A DNA stretch of 50,497 nucleotides from Acidobacteriota bacterium (GTDB taxonomy: Bacteria > Acidobacteriota > Vicinamibacteria > Vicinamibacterales > 2-12-FULL-66-21). Below, piece by piece: positions 4,421 to 49,868 of this stretch. The stretch's first letter is position 1; each line of letters begins with the position of its first letter. A program made the position numbers and the translations under genes. The notes below the pieces were generated by a model. That model searched no databases, was not told the DNA's origin, and worked only from the letters and a program-made list of their open reading frames with translations. The stretch lies in assembly GCA_003222675.1 (NCBI GenBank), contig QHWT01000050.1, positions 1 to 50,497 of the forward strand, given 5' to 3'.

Positions 4421-9214
<4,794 letters not shown>

Positions 9215-15580: not shown

Positions 15581-16735
15581 ATGGATGAGCCCTCGCGATC
15601 GGCCAGGAGTTTGCTATCGATCCGCGGCATGTTGGCACGCTTGCGAGTCCCGCTCGGCTGGACAGACCTGCTCAAACGCACGGGGAATGAAGCCGTCGAA
15701 GACGACATCCTGAACCTCGCCGCGCAGCAGGCCTACTACTTCTTCTTCGCGCTGTTCCCTGCGCTGCTGTTCGTGATCGCGATTGCCAGCTTCTTCCCGC
15801 TGCAGTCGCTGATCGACGACGTCGTCCAGATGCTCGGGCGGATCGCGCCGAAGGCGGTGATCGACATTGTCACGGAGCAGATGTCCTCACTCGCCAAGCA
15901 AAACAGCGGAGGACTGCTCACGTTCGCGTTCCTCGTGACGGTCTGGAGCAGCTCGGGCGCGATGGTGTCGATCATCACGACGCTCAATGCCGCATACGAC
16001 ATCACGGAATCGCGGCCCTGGTGGAAGACCCGCGTCATCGCGGTTGGCCTTACCATCGGCATCGCCTTCTTCATCATCGCGTCGATGTTCCTCGTGCTTG
16101 CGGGGCCCACGGTCGCCGAGCACCTCGCTAACACGCTGTACCTCGGCGCAGCCTTCAAGTGGACGTGGTGGGTTTTGCAGTGGCCGATCGTGTTCGCGTT
16201 TGTCGTCACCGGGATTGGCGTCGTGTACTACTTCGCGCCCGACGCGCAACAGGAATGGGTGTGGATTACGCCGGGTTCGGTGCTTGCCGCCGTTCTCTGG
16301 CTCATCGTCTCACTGGGGCTGAAGCTGTACTACACGCTTGTACCAAACGCGAACGCCACCTACGGAACGATCGGTGGCGTGATGGTGCTGATGCTGTGGT
16401 TCTACTGTTCCGGCATCGCCCTGTTGATGGGGGCGGAGCTCAACGCCGAGATCGAACACGCGTCACCCTATGGAAAAGATCCGGGCGAACGCGTGCCTGG
16501 AGAGAAGAAGGCCATCGGCCCGCTTGCGCAGCGCATCTACGAGGAGAAGCGCGCGAAGGGAGAGATCCCGATCAAGCCAATGCCCGAGACCGTCAACTGC
16601 GACATCGACCGCCCGGCATCGGTCGAGCACCCGGAAGCCACGCCGAGCGAGCTGCTGATCGGCACGATCGCGCTCATCCCGACGGCGGTCGTGGTGGCGA
16701 AGAAGATTCGCGAGGAGATGAAGAAGAGCGCGTAA
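15581..16735 (+). CDS. YihY/BrkB family inner-membrane protein
   Basis: A 384-residue protein with about six membrane spans in residues 45-300. Family-typical segments include AAQQAYYFFFALFPALLF, WSSSGAMVSIITTLNAAY, GSVLAAVLWLIVSL, NATYGTIGGVMVLMLWFY and GAELNAEIEH. Long ago the family was linked to ribonuclease BN, but that link was dropped; its role is not settled. A charged cytoplasmic tail follows, with one late hydrophobic stretch (LLIGTIALIPTAVVVAKK). ATG 15581 is taken because the frame further upstream is antisense to the peptidase gene. Confidence 0.87.
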   Translation: MDEPSRSARSLLSIRGMLARLRVPLGWTDLLKRTGNEAVEDDILNLAAQQAYYFFFALFPALLFVIAIASFFPLQSLIDDVVQMLGRIAPKAVIDIVTEQMSSLAKQNSGGLLTFAFLVTVWSSSGAMVSIITTLNAAYDITESRPWWKTRVIAVGLTIGIAFFIIASMFLVLAGPTVAEHLANTLYLGAAFKWTWWVLQWPIVFAFVVTGIGVVYYFAPDAQQEWVWITPGSVLAAVLWLIVSLGLKLYYTLVPNANATYGTIGGVMVLMLWFYCSGIALLMGAELNAEIEHASPYGKDPGERVPGEKKAIGPLAQRIYEEKRAKGEIPIKPMPETVNCDIDRPASVEHPEATPSELLIGTIALIPTAVVVAKKIREEMKKSA

Positions 16736-41464: not shown

Positions 41465-43189
41465 ATGATCCGACGCATGACCGCACTCGTCGCTCTTCTT
41501 CTGCTGGTCGTGCCGATCTCTGCCGCGCCGCTTCGGGACGAGGCGGTCTCATCGAGAGACGGGCTTGTCGTCTGTACGTCGGCGCCGGCGTGCGACGCGG
41601 GAACTGGCATCCTCGCGCGCGGCGGCAACGCCGTGGACGCGGCGGTCGCAACCGCGTTCGCCCTCGCCGTCACGCATCCGAGCGCCGGAAACCTCGGCGG
41701 CGGCGGTTTCATGCTGGTGCGCACGCCGAATGGCGATGCAACCACGTTCGATTACCGCGAGAAGGCGCCGCTGAAAGCGACGCGGACGATGTACCTGCGC
41801 GACGGACAGATTGATATCTCGCTGACCAACGCGGGGTATCTCGCGCCAGGCGTGCCGGGCACCGTGCGTGGTCTCGCGCTCGCGCACAAACGCTTCGGCA
41901 AGCTCCCGTGGAAAGAACTCGTGATGCCCGCGGTGCAGCTTGCCGAGGAAGGATTCGTTCTCTCCGACGCGCTGTCGAAGAGTCTCAACAAGCAGCTTTC
42001 CGGTGCGATGGGCCGCTTTCCCACATCTGTGGAGGCCTATGGCAAGCCAGGCGGCGGCAGGTGGGCGAGCGGCGATCGGATCGTGTTGAAAGAGCTCGGC
42101 AAAACGCTGCGCGCGATCGCGACGAACGGACCCGACGTCTTCTACAAGGGCTGGATTGCGGACCGCATCGCGGAGGACGCGGCGGCAAACGGCGGGCTGA
42201 TCACCAAGGACGATCTTGCGAAGTACGAGGCGAAGGAGCGCACACCGATCCGTGGCCAGTTTCGAGGCTTTGACATCATCACCATGCCGCCCCCGAGCTC
42301 GGGCGGCGTCGCACTGATTGAGATGCTGAACATCCTCGAGCCCTTCGATCTGAAGTCGAAGGGGCGCAACACCGCCGAGTCGATGCACCTTCAGATCGAA
42401 GCAATGCGTCGCGCGTACCTCGATCGCGCGCGGTTCCTGGGCGATCCGGATTTCGTGCATGTGCCGATCGCCGACCTCATCTCGAAGGAGCACGCCCGCA
42501 CGCTCTCGGGATCGATCGATCCGCTCAAGGCGACGAACAGCGTGGAGCTGGGGAAGGATATCGTCACGGTGACGGCGCAGGAACCGGACGAAACGACGCA
42601 CTTCTCTGTGATCGATCGCAACGGCACGGCCGTGTCGAACACCTATACTCTCGAGGGCGGTTTCGGATCGCGTGTCGTGGTGAAGGGCGCCGGATTCCTG
42701 TTGAACAATGAGATGGGTGATTTCAATAAGAACCCGGGGGTCACTGACCTCACCGGCAACATCGGCACGCCCGCGAACCTCATCGATCCGGGTAAGCGCA
42801 TGCTCAGCTCGATGACGCCGGTCATCGTGGCGAAGAACGGCCGGGTCGTCCTGATCACCGGATCGCCCGGCGGACGCACGATCATCAACACGGTGCTCTC
42901 GGTCGTCCTCGGCGTCACGGAATTCGGCCTCGGCGTGCGCGATGCAGTCGATGCGCCACGGATGCATCACCAGTGGCTCCCCGACGCCGTCACCATCGAA
43001 CGGGACGGCACGACTGAGGAGGTGGTGCAGAAGCTGCGGGCGATGGGACACACCGTGAACGTCGCCGGCACGCAGGGGGACGCGAACTCGATCGAGGTGG
43101 ACGAGGGAGGCAGGGCCACGGGCGCCGCCGACCGGCGCAGCCCTGACGGCAAGACGTCGATCCCTCGCGGCTTGACTTCGCGGCGGTGA
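41465..43189 (+). CDS. ggt: Gamma-glutamyltranspeptidase
   Basis: A 574-residue Ntn-hydrolase exported by a signal peptide (ALVALLLLVVPISAAP). It self-cleaves before Thr377 in DETTHFSVIDRNG, the new N-terminal nucleophile. GNLGGGGFMLVR, PPPSSGGVALIEML and ITGSPGGRTIINTV are family blocks. It hydrolyses glutathione or transfers gamma-glutamyl groups in the periplasm. GGAG lies eight bases before ATG 41465. The his promoter seems to lie inside its last 20 bp. Confidence 0.94.
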   Translation: MIRRMTALVALLLLVVPISAAPLRDEAVSSRDGLVVCTSAPACDAGTGILARGGNAVDAAVATAFALAVTHPSAGNLGGGGFMLVRTPNGDATTFDYREKAPLKATRTMYLRDGQIDISLTNAGYLAPGVPGTVRGLALAHKRFGKLPWKELVMPAVQLAEEGFVLSDALSKSLNKQLSGAMGRFPTSVEAYGKPGGGRWASGDRIVLKELGKTLRAIATNGPDVFYKGWIADRIAEDAAANGGLITKDDLAKYEAKERTPIRGQFRGFDIITMPPPSSGGVALIEMLNILEPFDLKSKGRNTAESMHLQIEAMRRAYLDRARFLGDPDFVHVPIADLISKEHARTLSGSIDPLKATNSVELGKDIVTVTAQEPDETTHFSVIDRNGTAVSNTYTLEGGFGSRVVVKGAGFLLNNEMGDFNKNPGVTDLTGNIGTPANLIDPGKRMLSSMTPVIVAKNGRVVLITGSPGGRTIINTVLSVVLGVTEFGLGVRDAVDAPRMHHQWLPDAVTIERDGTTEEVVQKLRAMGHTVNVAGTQGDANSIEVDEGGRATGAADRRSPDGKTSIPRGLTSRR

Positions 43190-43201
43190 AGCAGCTACGC
43201 T
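43172..43201 (+). promoter_or_regulatory. Probable his operon promoter
   Basis: -35 TTGACT (43172-43177), an 18-base spacer, and -10 TACGCT (43196-43201). It overlaps the end of ggt. RNA would start near 43208, only five bases before the leader-peptide ATG. The -10 is weak, so confidence is moderate. Confidence 0.45.
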
Positions 43202-43212
43202 CGAACCTTCAA

Positions 43213-43287
43213 ATGTTTTCGTTGACGCACCATCATTGCCGGCACCACCATTCCTGTCCCGGCGGGCCGGTCGATCTGCGCCACTGA
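43213..43287 (+). CDS. hisL: Histidine operon leader peptide
   Basis: A 24-residue open frame starting MFSLTHHHCRHHHSC and ending VDLRH, then TGA at 43285-43287. Seven of 24 codons are His, six of them within eight codons (43228-43251). It lies between ggt and the his genes, right before a strong terminator. That is the layout of his attenuators: when charged tRNA-His is scarce the ribosome stalls on the His codons and transcription continues. No clear Shine-Dalgarno is visible; the predicted RNA start is five bases upstream, so translation may be leaderless. The gene is too short for standard calling. Confidence 0.85.
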   Translation: MFSLTHHHCRHHHSCPGGPVDLRH

Positions 43288-43317
43288 CCATCGACAAGAG
43301 CAGCACGACTTCACCAG

Positions 43318-43348
43318 GCCCCGCCGGCAGCGCCGAGCGGGGCTTTTT
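43318..43348 (+). terminator. his attenuator terminator
   Basis: GCCCCGC-CGGC-AGC-GCCG-A-GCGGGGC followed by TTTTT gives an 11-bp stem with one bulged A. Its 5' arm (43317-43327) can instead pair with CCGGCGGGCC at 43259-43268 inside the leader peptide (ten pairs, one bulge). That alternative would be an antiterminator, available when the ribosome stalls on the His codons. Confidence 0.85.
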
Positions 43349-43352
43349 ATTT

Positions 43353-43442
43353 GAGGCCACGGAGGGATGGGTCGACAGAGAGTTTTTAACTAAGAGGCCA
43401 CAGACAACAACAAAATGAAGTCTCCGTGACCTCAGTGGCCTC
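43353..43442. repeat. Inverted repeat between the attenuator and hisI
   Basis: GAGGCCAC (43353-43360) pairs with GTGGCCTC (43435-43442), and CACGGAG (43358-43364) with CTCCGTG (43422-43428). A third related word, AGAGGCCACAGA, lies inside. No gene is visible in it. Confidence 0.6.
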
Positions 43443-43459
43443 TGAGTACCAGGACTCCC

Positions 43460-43798
43460 GTGGCCTTTCAATGGACGCTTATGGACTTCTCAAAGCTCGG
43501 AGGTCTGGTTCCGGCGGTCATTCAGGATCGTTACTCGCACGAAGTGCTGATGGTCGGCTTCATGAACCAGGAGGCGCTCGATCGGACGCGCGAGACTGGT
43601 TACGTGACGTTCTTCAGCCGCACGCGGAATGCGCTCTGGACCAAGGGGGAGACATCCGGCAACCGTCTGCAGGTCGCGGAGATGCTCGTCGATTGCGACG
43701 AGGACACGATCCTCGTGAAGGTCACGCGCCTCGGTGACGGCAACGTCTGCCACACAGGTCAGCGCAGCTGCTTCCACCGCACGCTGAACGAGAGATGA
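43460..43798 (+). CDS. hisI: Phosphoribosyl-AMP cyclohydrolase
   Basis: A 112-residue metal enzyme, third step of histidine synthesis. [29 protein letters not shown] and the zinc Cys sites ([13 protein letters not shown], then [12 protein letters not shown]) are intact. It is mono-functional; no HisE (pyrophosphohydrolase) domain is attached and none is elsewhere in the cluster. GTG 43460 has AGGA seven bases upstream; ATG 43481 is the alternative. It is the first structural gene of the operon. Confidence 0.92.
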
Positions 43799-44685
43799 CG
43801 ACCAGGCTGAAGCTGGGTATACCGAAGGGCTCGCTGCAGGACGCGACGATCCAGTTGTTCGCGCGCGCGGGCTTCAATATCTACGCCAGCCCGCGCTCGT
43901 ACTTTCCGAGCATCGACGATCCGGAGATCGAATGCATGTTGATCCGCGCGCAGGAGATGGCGCGCTACGTCGCGGATGGCGTGCTCGATGCGGGGCTGAC
44001 GGGGCTCGACTGGATCGCCGAGCACGAGGCGGCGAACGCGGGCCCGCGGGTCGTCGCGCTCGCCGATCTGGTCTACGCGAAACAGAGCTTCGGGAAGGTC
44101 CGCTGGGTGCTCGCCGTGCCCGAAGATTCACGGTACCGATCGCCACAGGATCTCCAAGGCGGAACCGTCGCGACGGAGCTGGTGCGCGCGACGCAAGCGT
44201 ACTTCGCAAAGCTGGGGATCAACGTCAACGTCGAGTTCTCGTGGGGCGCCACCGAAGTGAAGCCGCCGGTGCTCGCCGACGCGATCGTCGAGGTCACCGA
44301 GACGGGCTCGTCGCTCCGCGCCAACCGGTTACGCATTATCGATACGGTGCTCGAATCCAACACGCAGCTGATCGCGAACGCGGCCGCGCTGTCGGACACG
44401 TGGAAACGCACGAAGGTCGAGAACGTAGCGCTCCTGTTGAAGGCAGCGATCGAAGCGCAGGGGCGCGTTGGAATCATGCTGAATGTCCGGCGGGCGGATC
44501 TCGATGGCGTGCTCGCGCTCCTGCCGGCGCTCCAGCGGCCGACCATCTCGCCGCTCAGCGACACCGACTGGGTCGCCCTGAACACGATCATCGAGGAGCG
44601 GACCGTCCGCGATCTCATCCCGCGCCTCAAGGCCGCGCGCGCGCAGGGGATCGTTGAGTATCCGCTGAACAAGATTGTGATGTAG
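43795..44685 (+). CDS. hisG: ATP phosphoribosyltransferase, long form
   Basis: A 296-residue enzyme for the first histidine step. [21 protein letters not shown] opens it; [11 protein letters not shown] and [17 protein letters not shown] follow. The roughly 75-residue C-terminal domain ([19 protein letters not shown]) is the histidine-binding regulatory module, so HisZ is not needed and feedback inhibition is expected. ATG 43795 overlaps hisI (ATGA). Confidence 0.95.
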
Positions 44686-44891: not shown

Positions 44892-46130
44892 ATGATTCGC
44901 ATCATCGAAGCTTCCGATCGACGGCGTGTCGCGGCGCTGCTGGACCGGGCGCCGCGGCGCGATGCGGCGATCGAGCGCCGCGTAGCGCGGATCGTCGATC
45001 GCGTGCGGCGCGGCGGGGATCGCGCGCTGCTCGCCTATGCCCGGACGCTCGATCGCCTGGACGGCGACATCGAGGTCACCCGCGGCGAGATGGAGGCGCA
45101 GGCCGCCACCGTGCGCCGCGAGATCCGTGAAGCGATCCGCATGGCGGCGCGGCATATCCGTCACGTGGCGCGCCTGCAGGTGCCGCGCGCATGGTCGACG
45201 AGCCCGGTGAACGGCGTCACCATCGAGCAGCGCGTGCTGCCGCTCGACCGGGTCGGCTGCTACGTGCCTGGCGGCCGGTACCCGCTGCCCTCGTCGCTGC
45301 TCATGACGGCGATTCCCGCGCGCGTGGCCGGCGTCCCCGAGGTCGTCGCGGTCTGTCCGAGGCCGGACGCGACCGTGATGGTGGCGGCGCTCGAAGCGGG
45401 CGTCAGCCGATTGCTGCGCGTTGGCGGCGCGCACGCCATTGCCGCACTGGCATTCGGCACGCGCACGATTGCCCGCGTCGACAAGATCGTCGGCCCCGGC
45501 AACGCGTATGTCGCGAGCGCCAAGGCGCTCGTATCGTCGACCTGCGCGATTGATTTTTTCGCTGGCCCCAGCGAAATCCTGATCGTGTCCGAGACGGGCC
45601 GTCCGGATTGGATCGCAGCAGACCTCCTCGCGCAGGCTGAACACGATCCGAACGCACGCGCGATTCTCATGACCCCGAATCGGCGGCTCGCGCGCGACAC
45701 GGAAGCTGCCGTGCGCCGGCAGATGCCGGCAGAAGGGCCCGCTCGCCAGGCGATTGCGGCAAACGGCGCGGTCATCGTGACCAAGACGCTGGACGAAGCC
45801 ATCGCGCTCAGCGAGCGCATGGCGCCGGAGCATCTCGTCTGCGATTCAGCCGCGGCGGCGACGCGTCTGCGCCGCGCCGGCACCGTGTTCGTCGGACGAT
45901 ACAGCGCGCAGGCAGCCGGCGACTACATCACTGGCTCGAACCACGTGCTCCCGACGTCTGGCGCCGCCCGCGCACGCGGAGGTCTCAGCGCGGCAGATTT
46001 CGTGCGCGTGTCGACGGTCCAGCGCGTGACGGCTGAGGGCATCAGGCGCGTCGGGCCGGCGGCCATCGCGCTGGCGAACGCAGAAGGATTGCGAGCGCAC
46101 GCCGCGTCGCTGCGGGTGAGGCTGACCTGA
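44892..46130 (+). CDS. hisD: Histidinol dehydrogenase
   Basis: A 412-residue zinc enzyme that oxidises histidinol to histidine in two steps. GCYVPGGRYPLPSSLLMTAIPA, VGPGNAYVASAKALV, AIDFFAGPSEILIVSE and AQAEHDPNARAILM (metal and catalytic His/Glu) are intact. ATG 44892 is immediately behind a heptamer array with no Shine-Dalgarno, unlike the coupled genes on both sides. Confidence 0.96.
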   Translation: MIRIIEASDRRRVAALLDRAPRRDAAIERRVARIVDRVRRGGDRALLAYARTLDRLDGDIEVTRGEMEAQAATVRREIREAIRMAARHIRHVARLQVPRAWSTSPVNGVTIEQRVLPLDRVGCYVPGGRYPLPSSLLMTAIPARVAGVPEVVAVCPRPDATVMVAALEAGVSRLLRVGGAHAIAALAFGTRTIARVDKIVGPGNAYVASAKALVSSTCAIDFFAGPSEILIVSETGRPDWIAADLLAQAEHDPNARAILMTPNRRLARDTEAAVRRQMPAEGPARQAIAANGAVIVTKTLDEAIALSERMAPEHLVCDSAAAATRLRRAGTVFVGRYSAQAAGDYITGSNHVLPTSGAARARGGLSAADFVRVSTVQRVTAEGIRRVGPAAIALANAEGLRAHAASLRVRLT

Positions 46131-47179
46131 TGAGCGGCGAATATCAGAGGCCGGCGGCAGCCGGCGGCGGTCTTCGACTGCATCTGAACGAGAACACCGC
46201 GGGTTGCTCTCCGGCGGTGCTCGAGACGCTGCGCGCGATGACGCGCGTCGACGTGGCGTTCTATCCGGACTACGACGCGGCGCAGCACGCTGTGGCCACG
46301 CATTTCGATGTCGAGCCGGACGCCGTCCTCCTGACGAACGGGCTGGACGAAGGGATCCTCGCAGTCACCGCCGCCGCCTTCCGCGATCGATCCCGCGGCG
46401 TGCCGGACGCGGTCGGCGTCCTGCCGGCGTTCGACATGTACGAGGTCTGCACCGAGGCGCTCGGTGGGCGCCTCATCACCGTGCCGCTCGGTGCGAGGTT
46501 CGAGTTTTCGTTCCATGAAATCGCGCGGGCGCGCACGCCAGCCACGCGGATCGTGTTCCTGACGAATCCTCACAACCCGACCGGCCAGATCCTGCCGCTC
46601 GACCCGCTTCGAAATCTCGTGCGCGATCTTGCGCCGGTGATCCTGTTCGTCGACGAAGCGTACGCAGACTTTTCAGGCGAAACACTCCTCGATCGCGGCA
46701 CGCTCGATCGCTATCGCAATCTCGTCATCGGACGCACGTTCGCCAAGGCGTACGGCCTTGCGGCTCTGCGCGCCGGAGCGCTCATCGCACATCCTGACAC
46801 GCTGGCGCCCATCCGGCGCATCGTGCCGCCCTACAGCCTCAACGCATGGGCGGCGGCAGCGCTGCCCGTCGCACTCAACGACCGCGCGTATCGCGATTGG
46901 TACATCGCCCAGGCGGCCGAGTCGCGGGACCTGCTGACGAAGGAGTGCGTTCGGCTCGGGCTGCGCACCTGGCCGAGCGCCGCCAACTTCATGCTCGTCC
47001 ATGTCGGTGAAAAGGCGCCGGCGCTGACGGCCGCGCTCGCAGCTCGGGGCATTTACGTCCGCGATCGATCGTCGGAGGCCGGCTGCCAGGGCTGCATTCG
47101 CATCACGACGGGGGTCGTCGAGCATACCCGACAGCTGATAGCCGCGCTCGAGGAGGAACTGTGCGCAAAGCCTCGCTGA
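46130..47179 (+). CDS. hisC: Histidinol-phosphate aminotransferase
   Basis: A 349-residue class I/II PLP aminotransferase. [40 protein letters not shown] and the PLP-lysine block [16 protein letters not shown] are present. It turns imidazole-acetol phosphate into histidinol phosphate. Stop and start overlap with hisD (TGATG). Confidence 0.94.
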
Positions 47180-47748
47180 AGCGCACGACTCGAGAAACGT
47201 CGATCGCCCTGAAGCTCACGATTGAAGGGCGGGGCCGCTACGACGTCAGGACGGGAATCCGCTTCTTCGATCACATGCTGGAGCTCTTCGCCCGCCACGG
47301 CGCATTCGATCTGGTGCTACGCGCCAATGGAGACCTCGACGTGGACCAGCATCACACGGTGGAGGACGTGGGCATCGCGCTCGGCGAGGCGGTCGCATCT
47401 GCGCTTGGCACGCGGCGCGGGATCCATCGGGCCGGGTATTTCGTGATGCCGATGGACGAGACGCTCGCCGTCGCCGCAATCGACCTCAGCGGCCGCCCCC
47501 ATGCCGTCGTCGATCTGAAGCTGGAGGTGCCGCGCGTCGGCGATCTTCAATCCGAACTGGTGCAGGACTTCTTCGAAGGTTTCGCGCAGGGAGCCCGTGC
47601 GAACGTGCACGTGAAGGTGCTGTACGGCCGATCGAGCCATCACCAGGTCGAGGCGATCTTCAAGGCGTTCGCGCGCGCGCTGAGGGTAGCGTGTTCACGG
47701 GATCGCCAGCTTGGAAGGATGCTCCCGTCCACGAAGGGACTGTTGTAA
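47161..47748 (+). CDS. hisB: Imidazoleglycerol-phosphate dehydratase
   Basis: A 195-residue mono-functional enzyme without the HisB phosphatase domain. The metal sites lie in [30 protein letters not shown] and [22 protein letters not shown] 47161 overlaps hisC by 19 bp. No histidinol-phosphate phosphatase is in the cluster, so that step must be encoded elsewhere. Confidence 0.95.
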
Positions 47749-47755
47749 CCGGGAC

Positions 47756-47846
47756 GCGGGACGCGGGGTGCGGGACGCGGGGTGCGGGACGCGGGGTGCG
47801 GGACGCGGGGTGCGGGGTGCGGGGTGCGGGACGCGGGACGCGGGGT
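47756..47846. repeat. Heptamer array between hisB and hisH
   Basis: Thirteen uninterrupted copies of GCGGGAC or GCGGGGT, often alternating. It begins seven bases after the hisB stop and ends shortly before the hisH ribosome site (GAGGAG). The G/C strand asymmetry is extreme. Confidence 0.95.
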
Positions 47847-47862
47847 GCGAGGAGACTACAGA

Positions 47863-48429
47863 GTGATTGCATTGATTGACTACGGCGCGGGCAATCTCAC
47901 GTCGGTGCGCAAGGCGCTCGCGGCCATCGCGGCACCCGTTGTCATCCCCGCCGCCCCCGACGCGCTGAGCGGTGTGTCTGGAATCATCATTCCGGGTGTA
48001 GGACATTACGGCGCGACGGCGGCACTGGATGATACGTGGCGGCGCGGAATCGCGCGCGCCGTCGATGCGGGCGTGCCGCTGCTCGGCATCTGCCTCGGCC
48101 TTCAATACCTCTTCGAAGGCAGCGACGAGGCTCTGCCGCATGTCGGATGGAACACCGTGGAGCTGACCCGGCGGTCGCCGCTTGTCGAAGGGATCCCGAC
48201 CGGGACCTCGTTCTACTTCACGCACTCGTACGCCGCCCCCGTCACCGATGCCTGCGTCGCCCAGACGAAGCACAGCGCCGCCTTCGCGGCCATCGTCGAA
48301 CGCGAGCGCGTCTTCGGCGCGCAGTTTCACCCCGAGAAGTCCGGCGACGCAGGCGTCCGCGTTCTGCGGAACTTCGTTGAAATCACAGGGTCACTGACCC
48401 GCCACGTCACGAGATTTACGGATCACTGA
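47863..48429 (+). CDS. hisH: Imidazole glycerol phosphate synthase, glutaminase subunit
   Basis: A 188-residue class I amidotransferase partner of HisF. IDYGAGNLTSVRKAL opens it; the nucleophile Cys is in GICLGLQYLFEGS and the His-Glu pair in QFHPEKSGD. GTG 47863 has GAGGAG about nine bases upstream; the frame upstream of it is repeat DNA. It passes ammonia to HisF. Confidence 0.95.
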   Translation: MIALIDYGAGNLTSVRKALAAIAAPVVIPAAPDALSGVSGIIIPGVGHYGATAALDDTWRRGIARAVDAGVPLLGICLGLQYLFEGSDEALPHVGWNTVELTRRSPLVEGIPTGTSFYFTHSYAAPVTDACVAQTKHSAAFAAIVERERVFGAQFHPEKSGDAGVRVLRNFVEITGSLTRHVTRFTDH

Positions 48430-48435
48430 GCTCCC

Positions 48436-49191
48436 GTGTTGGCCAAACGCATCATCGCGTGTCTCGATGTCAGAAATGGATGTGTCGTCAAAGGTGTGCA
48501 GTTCGAAGGCCTGACGAATGCCGGCGATCCGGCTGCGCTTGCGAGCCGCTACAACGTCGAAGGGATTGACGAGCTGGTTATCCTCGACGTGACCGCCACG
48601 CTCGAAGGACGCCGCGCGCTGGCCGCAACGATCCGTCAAGTGGCCTCGCGGATATTCATTCCGCTGGCGGTCGGCGGCGGTATTCGCTCGGAGGACGACG
48701 CTGCAGCGGCGCTCGACGCGGGTGCAGACAAGGTAAGCCTCAACAGCGCGGCGTTGGCGGAACCATCGTTGCTTACAAAGCTAGCTGCGAGATATGGCTC
48801 ACAAGCCGTGATCGTCGCCATTGACGCGAAGCAGACAGAAGGACGCTTTGCCGTGTTCGCCCGGAGCGGCAGCACGGCGTCCGGGCGGAGTGCGGTCGAG
48901 TGGGCGCGCGAGGCGGCGGATCGCGGGGCCGGTGAAATCCTGCTGACCTCGATCGATCGCGACGGAACGCGAAGTGGATTCGACTGCGAGCTCACGGCCG
49001 CAGTCTCGTCGGCGGTCTCCATTCCCGTCATTGCCTCCGGCGGCGCCGGCACCTTCGAACATTTTCTCGAGGTCTTCACGCGCGGGCAGGCGGACGCCGC
49101 GCTCGCGGCCTCGATCTTTCACTTTTCGGAACACGCGGTCGCGGATCTCAAGACCTATCTCCACGATCGTGGTGTCCCCATGCGTCTCTGA
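48436..49191 (+). CDS. hisF: Imidazole glycerol phosphate synthase, cyclase subunit
   Basis: A 251-residue TIM barrel. [19 protein letters not shown] with the first catalytic Asp, [17 protein letters not shown], and [13 protein letters not shown] with the second Asp are intact. It joins PRFAR and ammonia to give IGP and AICAR. GTG 48436 (or TTG 48439) is used, six bases after hisH. The gene order H-F-A differs from the common H-A-F. Confidence 0.96.
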
Positions 49192-49193
49192 CG

Positions 49194-49868
49194 ATGCTGA
49201 TTCCCTCGATTGACCTCCAGGGCGGCCGGATCGTGCAATTGGTCCAGGGCGAGCGCCTGGCGATCGTGAGCGCGGACTTCGAGGGCTGGATTGAACGGTT
49301 CAAGTCTTTCGACAAGGTGCAGCTGATCGACCTCGATGCGGCGAAAGGAGACGGGGACAACTCCGCGCTCATCGACATGATTTGCGCGCGGCTGCCGTGC
49401 CGTGTCGGCGGCGGCATCCGCACCGCCGCACGCGCCGCCACGCTGCTGGCGCGCGGCGCCAGGAAGGTGATCCTCGGCTCAGCGCTCTTCAGCAATGGCC
49501 GCGTCGACGTGGGCCTCGCGAAAGAACTGCGCGACACGCTCGGCGACGATCGATTAATCGCAGCGGTCGACGCGCGGGGCGGCCGGGTCACGATTCACGG
49601 GTGGCGCACGCGCCTCGAAATCTCGTCGGTCGACGCGGTGCACACGCTCGAACCGTTCTTCGGCGAGTTTCTGTTTACGAACGTCGACACCGAGGGATTG
49701 ATGAATGGAGCGAACCGTCCGGCTATCGAGGAGGTCCGGCACGCCACCAAGCGCCACGTGACGGCCGCCGGCGGGATCACGACGCAGGAGGAAGTCGACT
49801 GGCTCGATTCAATCGGTGTCGACGCTGTGGTCGGCATGGCCGTCTATACGGGCCGACTGAAAATCTAG
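49194..49868 (+). CDS. hisA: ProFAR isomerase
   Basis: A 224-residue TIM barrel, a little short for the family. IPSIDLQGGRIVQL carries the first catalytic Asp, and CRVGGGIRTAA and GEFLFTNVDTEGLMNG (second Asp) follow. It isomerises ProFAR to PRFAR. ATG 49194 is two bases after the hisF stop. It is the last gene of the operon; no terminator hairpin with a T-run is seen after it. Confidence 0.93.
   Translation: MLIPSIDLQGGRIVQLVQGERLAIVSADFEGWIERFKSFDKVQLIDLDAAKGDGDNSALIDMICARLPCRVGGGIRTAARAATLLARGARKVILGSALFSNGRVDVGLAKELRDTLGDDRLIAAVDARGGRVTIHGWRTRLEISSVDAVHTLEPFFGEFLFTNVDTEGLMNGANRPAIEEVRHATKRHVTAAGGITTQEEVDWLDSIGVDAVVGMAVYTGRLKI

Follow-up and report, generated by a model that had tools for sequence, protein, structure and literature searches.

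The his attenuator of enterobacteria is built as a ladder of three stems, and its leader is introduced by a Shine-Dalgarno sequence. In Escherichia coli and Salmonella, where the element is catalogued as the Rfam family His_leader, a leader peptide with seven consecutive His residues, a rho-independent terminator and an antiterminator are described ahead of the first his gene (PMC3896937). Apart from the Gammaproteobacteria, his attenuators are known from some Firmicutes, in which 17 genomes (the Bacillus cereus group, five Eubacteriales and six Erysipelotrichales) are reported to carry a short leader with three to five His codons in a row, together with a terminator and an antiterminator, before their his operons (PMC9413887). 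Leader-peptide mRNAs that are themselves leaderless have been described for other amino acids: the RNA of Sinorhizobium meliloti trpL starts at the trpL ATG (PMC7298713), and mycobacterial polycysteine attenuators are reported as leaderless short frames with contiguous codons for one amino acid, the supply of which drives attenuation (PMC9031893). As for the Acidobacteria, a survey from 2010 states that, for phyla like this one, predicted attenuators are almost all without associated functions (PMC2965389), and the part of another study in which leader-gene distances are plotted for the phylum names no his attenuator (PMC4833913). The publications on attenuation and leader peptides in Acidobacteria or Solibacter that our searches returned hold, in the excerpts covered, no description of an element such as the one presented here.

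Here, we describe a stretch of DNA ahead of an acidobacterial his operon which we hold, with high confidence, to be a ribosome-mediated transcription attenuator that senses histidine through the supply of His-tRNA. It shares with its counterpart in E. coli and Salmonella the His-codon leader, the terminator and the antiterminator, and differs from it in that it finds no match in Rfam, has its promoter at the start codon, shows few Shine-Dalgarno-like sites among its relatives, places the antiterminator strand inside the leader frame and possesses one terminator hairpin only. The Firmicutes attenuators (with which the comparison is one of descriptions) belong to a different phylum, while S. meliloti trpL responds to Trp, belongs to the Alphaproteobacteria and has a known start site, as opposed to His and a predicted start site in our case; the mycobacterial elements, in turn, sense Cys instead of His and belong to the Actinobacteria. 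As far as the searched literature goes, the mechanism is known and the phylum, the extent and the combination are new.

Architecture of the leader region

The analyzed stretch (50,497 nucleotides, hereafter the window) sits in a genome assembly of 7.16 Mb and carries on its forward strand a gamma-glutamyltranspeptidase gene followed by a his operon in the order hisI, hisG, hisD, hisC, hisB, hisH, hisF and hisA (hisIGDCBHFA). The first structural gene, hisI (43481-43798), encodes phosphoribosyl-AMP cyclohydrolase (PF01502, E 4.4e-32; NF000768 above cut-off) and is succeeded by hisG (43795-44685), encoding the long form of ATP phosphoribosyltransferase (PF01634 and PF08029; TIGR00070 above cut-off), and by the genes from hisD to hisA (44892-49868). 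Pfam confirmed the identity of HisI, of HisG and of the gamma-glutamyltranspeptidase encoded upstream, and the remaining his names stem from protein recognition and from a gene order that is the same as in relatives.

Upstream of hisI and on the same strand we found a frame of 24 codons (43213-43287; MFSLTHHHCRHHHSCPGGPVDLRH, then stop) with seven His codons, six of which lie within the putative sensing segment HHHCRHHH (43228-43251), where CAT and CAC interchange freely among the relatives that keep the frame His-rich. Further downstream, positions 43318-43328 pair with 43332-43343 in a hairpin of 11 pairs (loop AGC, bulged A at 43336, -23.9 kcal/mol), which a G-U pair (43317-43344) lengthens and which the run TTTTT (43344-43348) turns into a predicted intrinsic terminator. 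Both of its arms (43317-43328 and 43332-43343) are backed by folding and covariation, and the 5' arm is common to terminator and antiterminator, since it can alternatively pair with positions 43259-43268 of the leader frame (CCGGCGGGCC) in a duplex of ten pairs (-22.3 kcal/mol; -25.2 kcal/mol with flanks). The frame and its HHHCRHHH core, the 11-bp stem with its T run and the ten-pair alternative had been pointed out in an earlier note on this DNA, and all were reproduced. Of 200 dinucleotide shuffles, 199 fold less well than 43213-43350 (z -2.72); as the equilibrium fold of the element is the terminator, antitermination in the window must be kinetic.

On both strands of the window the leader is the sole short frame (10-49 codons) with at least five His in nine codons. 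When at least four are asked for, three frames are obtained, and a hairpin with a T run follows two of them (the leader and a frame at 16021). A scanner with fixed rules listed neither the leader hairpin (probably on account of its bulge) nor a sigma-70 site in the window. The Rfam search of positions 42800-43900 returned no match to His_leader up to E 5, and six loci with His leaders gave no family at the gathering threshold; neither search turned up an attenuator, a T-box or any other family of relevance. A T-box for His was also considered and rejected, as T-boxes were absent among the matches up to E 5 in 42800-43900.

We reason that transcription from a promoter placed right before the leader AUG would yield a leaderless or nearly leaderless RNA, on which a ribosome would immediately start translating the leader. 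With scarce His-tRNA this ribosome would stall on the His run (43228-43251) and leave 43259-43268 free to pair with the nascent 5' arm of the terminator, the terminator would be blocked and hisIGDCBHFA would be transcribed. With ample His-tRNA the ribosome would cover 43259-43268 while the 5' arm is being made, the hairpin (43317-43343) would then form and transcription would stop at the T run. The earlier note had read the region as a case of classical attenuation, and this reading is supported by the parts, their order, their conservation and the compensatory changes, which are provided by the sequence and its comparison with relatives; translation of the frame, its start site, stalling, termination and the response to histidine are what we infer from them, and the regulation itself is a prediction.

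Conservation and distribution among relatives

HisI was matched in 45 of 60 related genomes (the window's own genome included). The 15 genomes without a match, among which are near-complete ones of the families f5, f11, f12 and f15, suggest that histidine synthesis was lost, that the enzyme diverged or that the assemblies have gaps. The earlier note had proposed that relatives be checked for the short His-rich frame and the terminator, and both proved to be kept: at least four His in nine codons were found upstream in 43 of the 45 loci (the other two, L012 and L017, have three), and a terminator could be assigned to 42 of these loci (40 of 43 in a first pass, to which L017 and L021 were later added), the exceptions being L020, L030 and L034.

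The wider sampling comprised 119 genomes of the class and 199 of the phylum (part of the matches being taken) and 80 named public loci, mainly of Vicinamibacteria and Terriglobia (Vicinamibacterales, Acidobacteriaceae, Bryobacteraceae, Acidipila rosea), with some Bacteroidales and one Thermodesulfobacterium. These named relatives confirm the affiliation of the window to the Acidobacteriota, which the earlier note had deemed possible; within the phylum, Vicinamibacteria are the most likely class. From 241 loci with hisI, and after the removal of 21 identical and 3 short regions, we kept 138 unique loci in which hisI comes first (i.e. hisG within 1.2 kb after it, or a stretch that ends soon past hisI, and no his gene directly upstream); merging was confined to identical sequences, and the 138 may still include some near-identical strains obtained from two sources. 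At least three His in eight codons were present in 136 of these loci, at least four in 129 and a terminator in 128, and the His-rich frame (at least four in eight codons) occurred together with the terminator in 124 of the 138. Judged by this comparison, a chance origin of the element is ruled out, because so large a part of the unique hisI-first loci has both components.

Among the 14 loci that fail the joint criterion, no His frame was found in L132 and L235 (the latter from the non-acidobacterial Thermodesulfobacterium), the frame has only three His in L012, L017, L058, L196, L141, L180 and L207, and the terminator is missing from L020, L030, L034, L100, L141, L180, L207 and L222 (L180 has no sequence upstream of hisI, yet it was counted as a miss among the 138). 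Three of them, L020, L034 and L100 of family f11, retain the His-rich leader and a GC hairpin in the absence of the T run, and the terminator of this family may work differently or may have been lost. The same three loci would be accommodated by a leader that, at least in some members, governs translation of the his genes or Rho-dependent termination instead of an intrinsic terminator. Against such a role stand the hairpin and T run found in the window and in 128 of the 138 loci, where the terminator lies at a median distance of about 52 bases from hisI; we deem it very unlikely, and intrinsic termination remains our preferred explanation.

A background scan of 60 loci (up to 20 kb each, 2.12 million strand-bases) recovered 15 short frames with at least five His in nine codons and a terminator, and 15 of the 15 precede runs of genes that contain his genes, a tally which assumes operon membership for L113 and L118 (first his gene 2.9 kb downstream, behind a gene which is aroDE-like in L113). 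Four more frames have exactly four His: those of L125 and L107 precede his runs (L107 at 3.7 kb), and for those of L140 and L161 no tie to his genes was found. Upstream of trpE (19 loci), ilvB (15) and leuA (18) a terminator-like hairpin was seen in 9 of 52 loci and a matching leader before it in 0 of 52, although several of these control genes may not be operon heads. In the other families of the class (f16-f19), 21 loci (L104-L124) yielded no leader at first, and a wider scan then detected three (L107, L113, L118), for which reason the absence of leaders from these families is not established.

Predicted promoter and start of the leader mRNA

The putative promoter of the window consists of a -35 box TTGACT (43172-43177), situated inside the 3' end of the gamma-glutamyltranspeptidase gene, and a -10 box TACGCT (43196-43201), located 18 bases past the -35 box and 11 bases ahead of the leader ATG, in a layout shared with relatives. 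Having 8 of 12 consensus bases, TTGACT-N18-TACGCT falls below the limit of 9 set in the fixed scanner and was found by a wider scan. Promoter and start were called in 105 of the 128 terminator-bearing hisI-first loci, and the gap between -10 box and start codon measures 6-11 bases in 90 of the 105 and exactly 9 in 50, where the start codon is the first in-frame start past the -10 box (a rule that biases the gaps towards short ones but would not create a peak at a single value). Shine-Dalgarno-like 4-mers precede 6 of the 105 leaders, as opposed to 41 of 128 hisI genes (the search ranges differing slightly).

A -10 box some ten bases ahead of the start codon serves as the criterion for leaderless genes in a study that already predicted such genes in Acidobacteria (PMC3160421). 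By this criterion the leader mRNA is most likely leaderless, or nearly so, with a start site predicted from the promoter. Within the window's own genome the pattern TTGAC-N17..20-TANNNT-N7..11-ATG matches 15 times, against 16 times at a spacing longer by ten bases (backward controls: 4 and 7), and some of the matches lie ahead of ordinary genes. In this genome the leaderless layout is not confined to attenuators, and the pattern alone proves nothing, because it is no more frequent than the control with the longer spacing.

Covariation and codon constraints

Compensatory changes, which the earlier note had anticipated in both stems, were assessed in an alignment of 64 leaders from the taxonomic order of the window, using as controls 500 shuffles and slid pairings, both of which ignore kinship among the aligned sequences. 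They are clear in the terminator. There, 91.2% of the cells are paired, a share that drops to 37-57% in slid versions. Both partners have changed in 8 of 11 pairs, a count which the shuffles average at 5.7 and reach in 10 of 500, and double changes occupy 40 cells (shuffled mean 13.4; 0 of 500 as high), with no excess in the number of pair types (17; shuffled mean 16.6). The signal is weaker in the antiterminator: its double-change cells (30) exceed the shuffled mean of 17.2 (0 of 500 as high), while neither double-change pairs (7; mean 7.1) nor pair types (19; mean 19.2) show an excess over shuffles, and the counts of both double-change pairs and double-change cells are higher (9 and 33) once the pairing is slid by -2. 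What supports the antiterminator is the fraction of paired cells (76.1%, as compared with 20-49% in slid versions) and the covariation score (0.222, where slid versions attain 0.104 at most).

The duplexes that leaders form with their own terminators are stronger than swapped ones (-18.97 vs -16.97 kcal/mol over 40 loci; 0 of 20000 permutations), and against mononucleotide shuffles 0.05 is reached in only 18 of the 40 single leaders, because GC-rich sequence pairs well by chance. The position of the strand varies among lineages, as in many leaders of other families it ends immediately ahead of the leader stop (e.g., CCGGCGGAGTTGCGCG, with a partner like GCAGCCCCGCCGG), and within the window's family the most stable pairing involves a segment more to the 5' side, CCGGCGGGCC.

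About 128 bases separate the stop of the gamma-glutamyltranspeptidase gene, which also contains the -35 box, from the start of the hairpin, and this proximity would suit a mere terminator of the upstream gene that is accompanied by His codons through chance. However, the stems covary, the His codons change freely among synonyms, and the his operon retains the element in relatives that differ in the DNA farther upstream, as well as in other gene orders. We consider an upstream-gene terminator extremely unlikely, and the attenuator of the his operon stays the favoured interpretation.

Across the 105 leaders His accounts for 27% of the residues, and it is encoded 351 times by CAT and 326 times by CAC. 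Within nine leaders of the window's family the third positions of the His codons vary, and the codons GGC GGG CCG of the antiterminator strand are identical in 9 of 9, even though their third positions could change without altering the peptide. A tenth leader (L028, family f1) keeps the RNA string CCGGCGGGCCG in another frame, so that it reads ...PAGR... where L003 and others have ...GGP.... Such a pattern would be expected if the first part of the leader were selected for its His content and the second for RNA pairing. Leader peptides that act in trans do exist (peTrpL of S. meliloti; PMC7298713), and the frame might by analogy encode a functional small His-rich protein (e.g., a metal-binding one) that precedes the his operon by chance. 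Yet in the window's family the stretch downstream of the His run is under constraint at the level of RNA rather than of protein, this stretch differs between families, and it is his operons that such His-rich frames precede; a small protein in this place appears highly improbable next to a histidine-sensing leader.

Computed effect of ribosome position

The footprint of the ribosome was masked codon by codon, and the pairing of the terminator 5' arm with the post-His segment was computed for the state in which the 3' arm is still to be synthesized. A ribosome placed on the first His gives an antiterminator probability above 0.5 in 40 of 40 and in 102 of 105 leaders, the mean being 0.82 as compared with 0.49 for a shuffled segment; by sequence and folding, a stall on His would free the antiterminator segment, as the earlier note had claimed. 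With the ribosome at the stop codon, the probability is below 0.5 in 30 of 40 leaders, and in 79, 83 and 88 of 105 for three footprints. The complementary claim, according to which the segment is covered when a ribosome sits at the stop, is borderline in the window: it would hold for footprints reaching 15 or 17 bases upstream of the P site (antiterminator probability 0.15 and 0.02), but not for those of 10 or 13 bases (0.82 and 0.83).

When no ribosome is present, the antiterminator reaches 0.5 in 50 of the 105 leaders, and untranslated RNA would therefore often read through. Enterobacterial attenuators possess a safeguard against untranslated RNA; according to our model, a safeguard of this kind is not general in the leaders analyzed here.

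Further candidate attenuators

A comparable layout, with a strong promoter at the AUG, an amino-acid-rich short frame endowed with an antiterminator tail, and a GC hairpin with a T run, may recur at several other loci. Whether leaderless leader-peptide attenuation would be a general device of the Acidobacteriota, covering his, aspartokinase (Thr), SsuE-like (Cys) and aroDE-his (Trp and His) genes and a tandem case, is in our judgement evenly balanced.

A Cys-rich leader (MPFRCCCPWCICSTPVRERGTSVLARRRIK, then stop) was observed in the window's own genome (G000, contig C145, locus L259, minus strand; promoter and start within C145:5785-5828), where a leaderless-type promoter, the leader and a GC hairpin with a T-rich tail are succeeded by a gene for an SsuE-like FMN reductase (TIGR03567, 159.7 bits, slightly below the cut-off of 164.05). 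The locus is a candidate cysteine attenuator, and a search of the 59 other genomes at E 1e-20 found no counterpart of its SsuE-like gene. Thr-rich leaders (MFAAQITITTTKKRSIKRIGRVGGVCELET in L283, MTLTCTRTQTRKRIKRASRPRWCMRA in L281) precede the aspartokinase genes of relatives, with a GC hairpin and a T run in between, and the same arrangement was seen in the window's own genome (G000, contig C152, L260; leader MGCCSCTATKTSMRNRTMRIRVSGGVCVYAP). At the aspartokinase loci L275 and L278 hairpins are present and the leaders are not Thr-rich, and most other aspartokinase loci examined have no Thr-rich leader of that kind.

Variants were also noted among the his loci themselves. On the minus strand of L162 (approximately 4793-5200 of the reverse complement), two successive His-rich frames, each with its own terminator, precede hisG and possibly act as tandem attenuators. 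In other families of the class (L113, L118 and L107) a leader containing both Trp and His (e.g., MTTPAQSPLGPVWRGSVHHHRHHS) is accompanied by a terminator; in L113 it precedes an aroDE-like gene (PF01487, PF08501) which opens a series of genes extending to hisG, and joint sensing of Trp and His by leaders of this type is possible. A His leader and a terminator lie directly ahead of a hisZ-like gene (PF13393, 1.8e-56; TIGR00443 below cut-off), followed by hisG, in L135 (approximately 2406-2640). In the Bacteroidales loci L215 and L225 (the latter from Perlabentimonas gracilis), a poly-His leader and a terminator precede hisG.

Implications

Taken as a whole, the comparative support for the element is very strong, and what it points to is an ordinary mechanism in an unreported place. 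One class of acidobacterial attenuators, counted in considerably more than a hundred loci, would hereby be assigned a probable function together with a testable signal. Acidobacteriota are common in soil, and the leaderless genes of these bacteria would here become linked to the sensing of an amino acid, while the many natural variants of the His leader would be available for studying the rules of attenuation.
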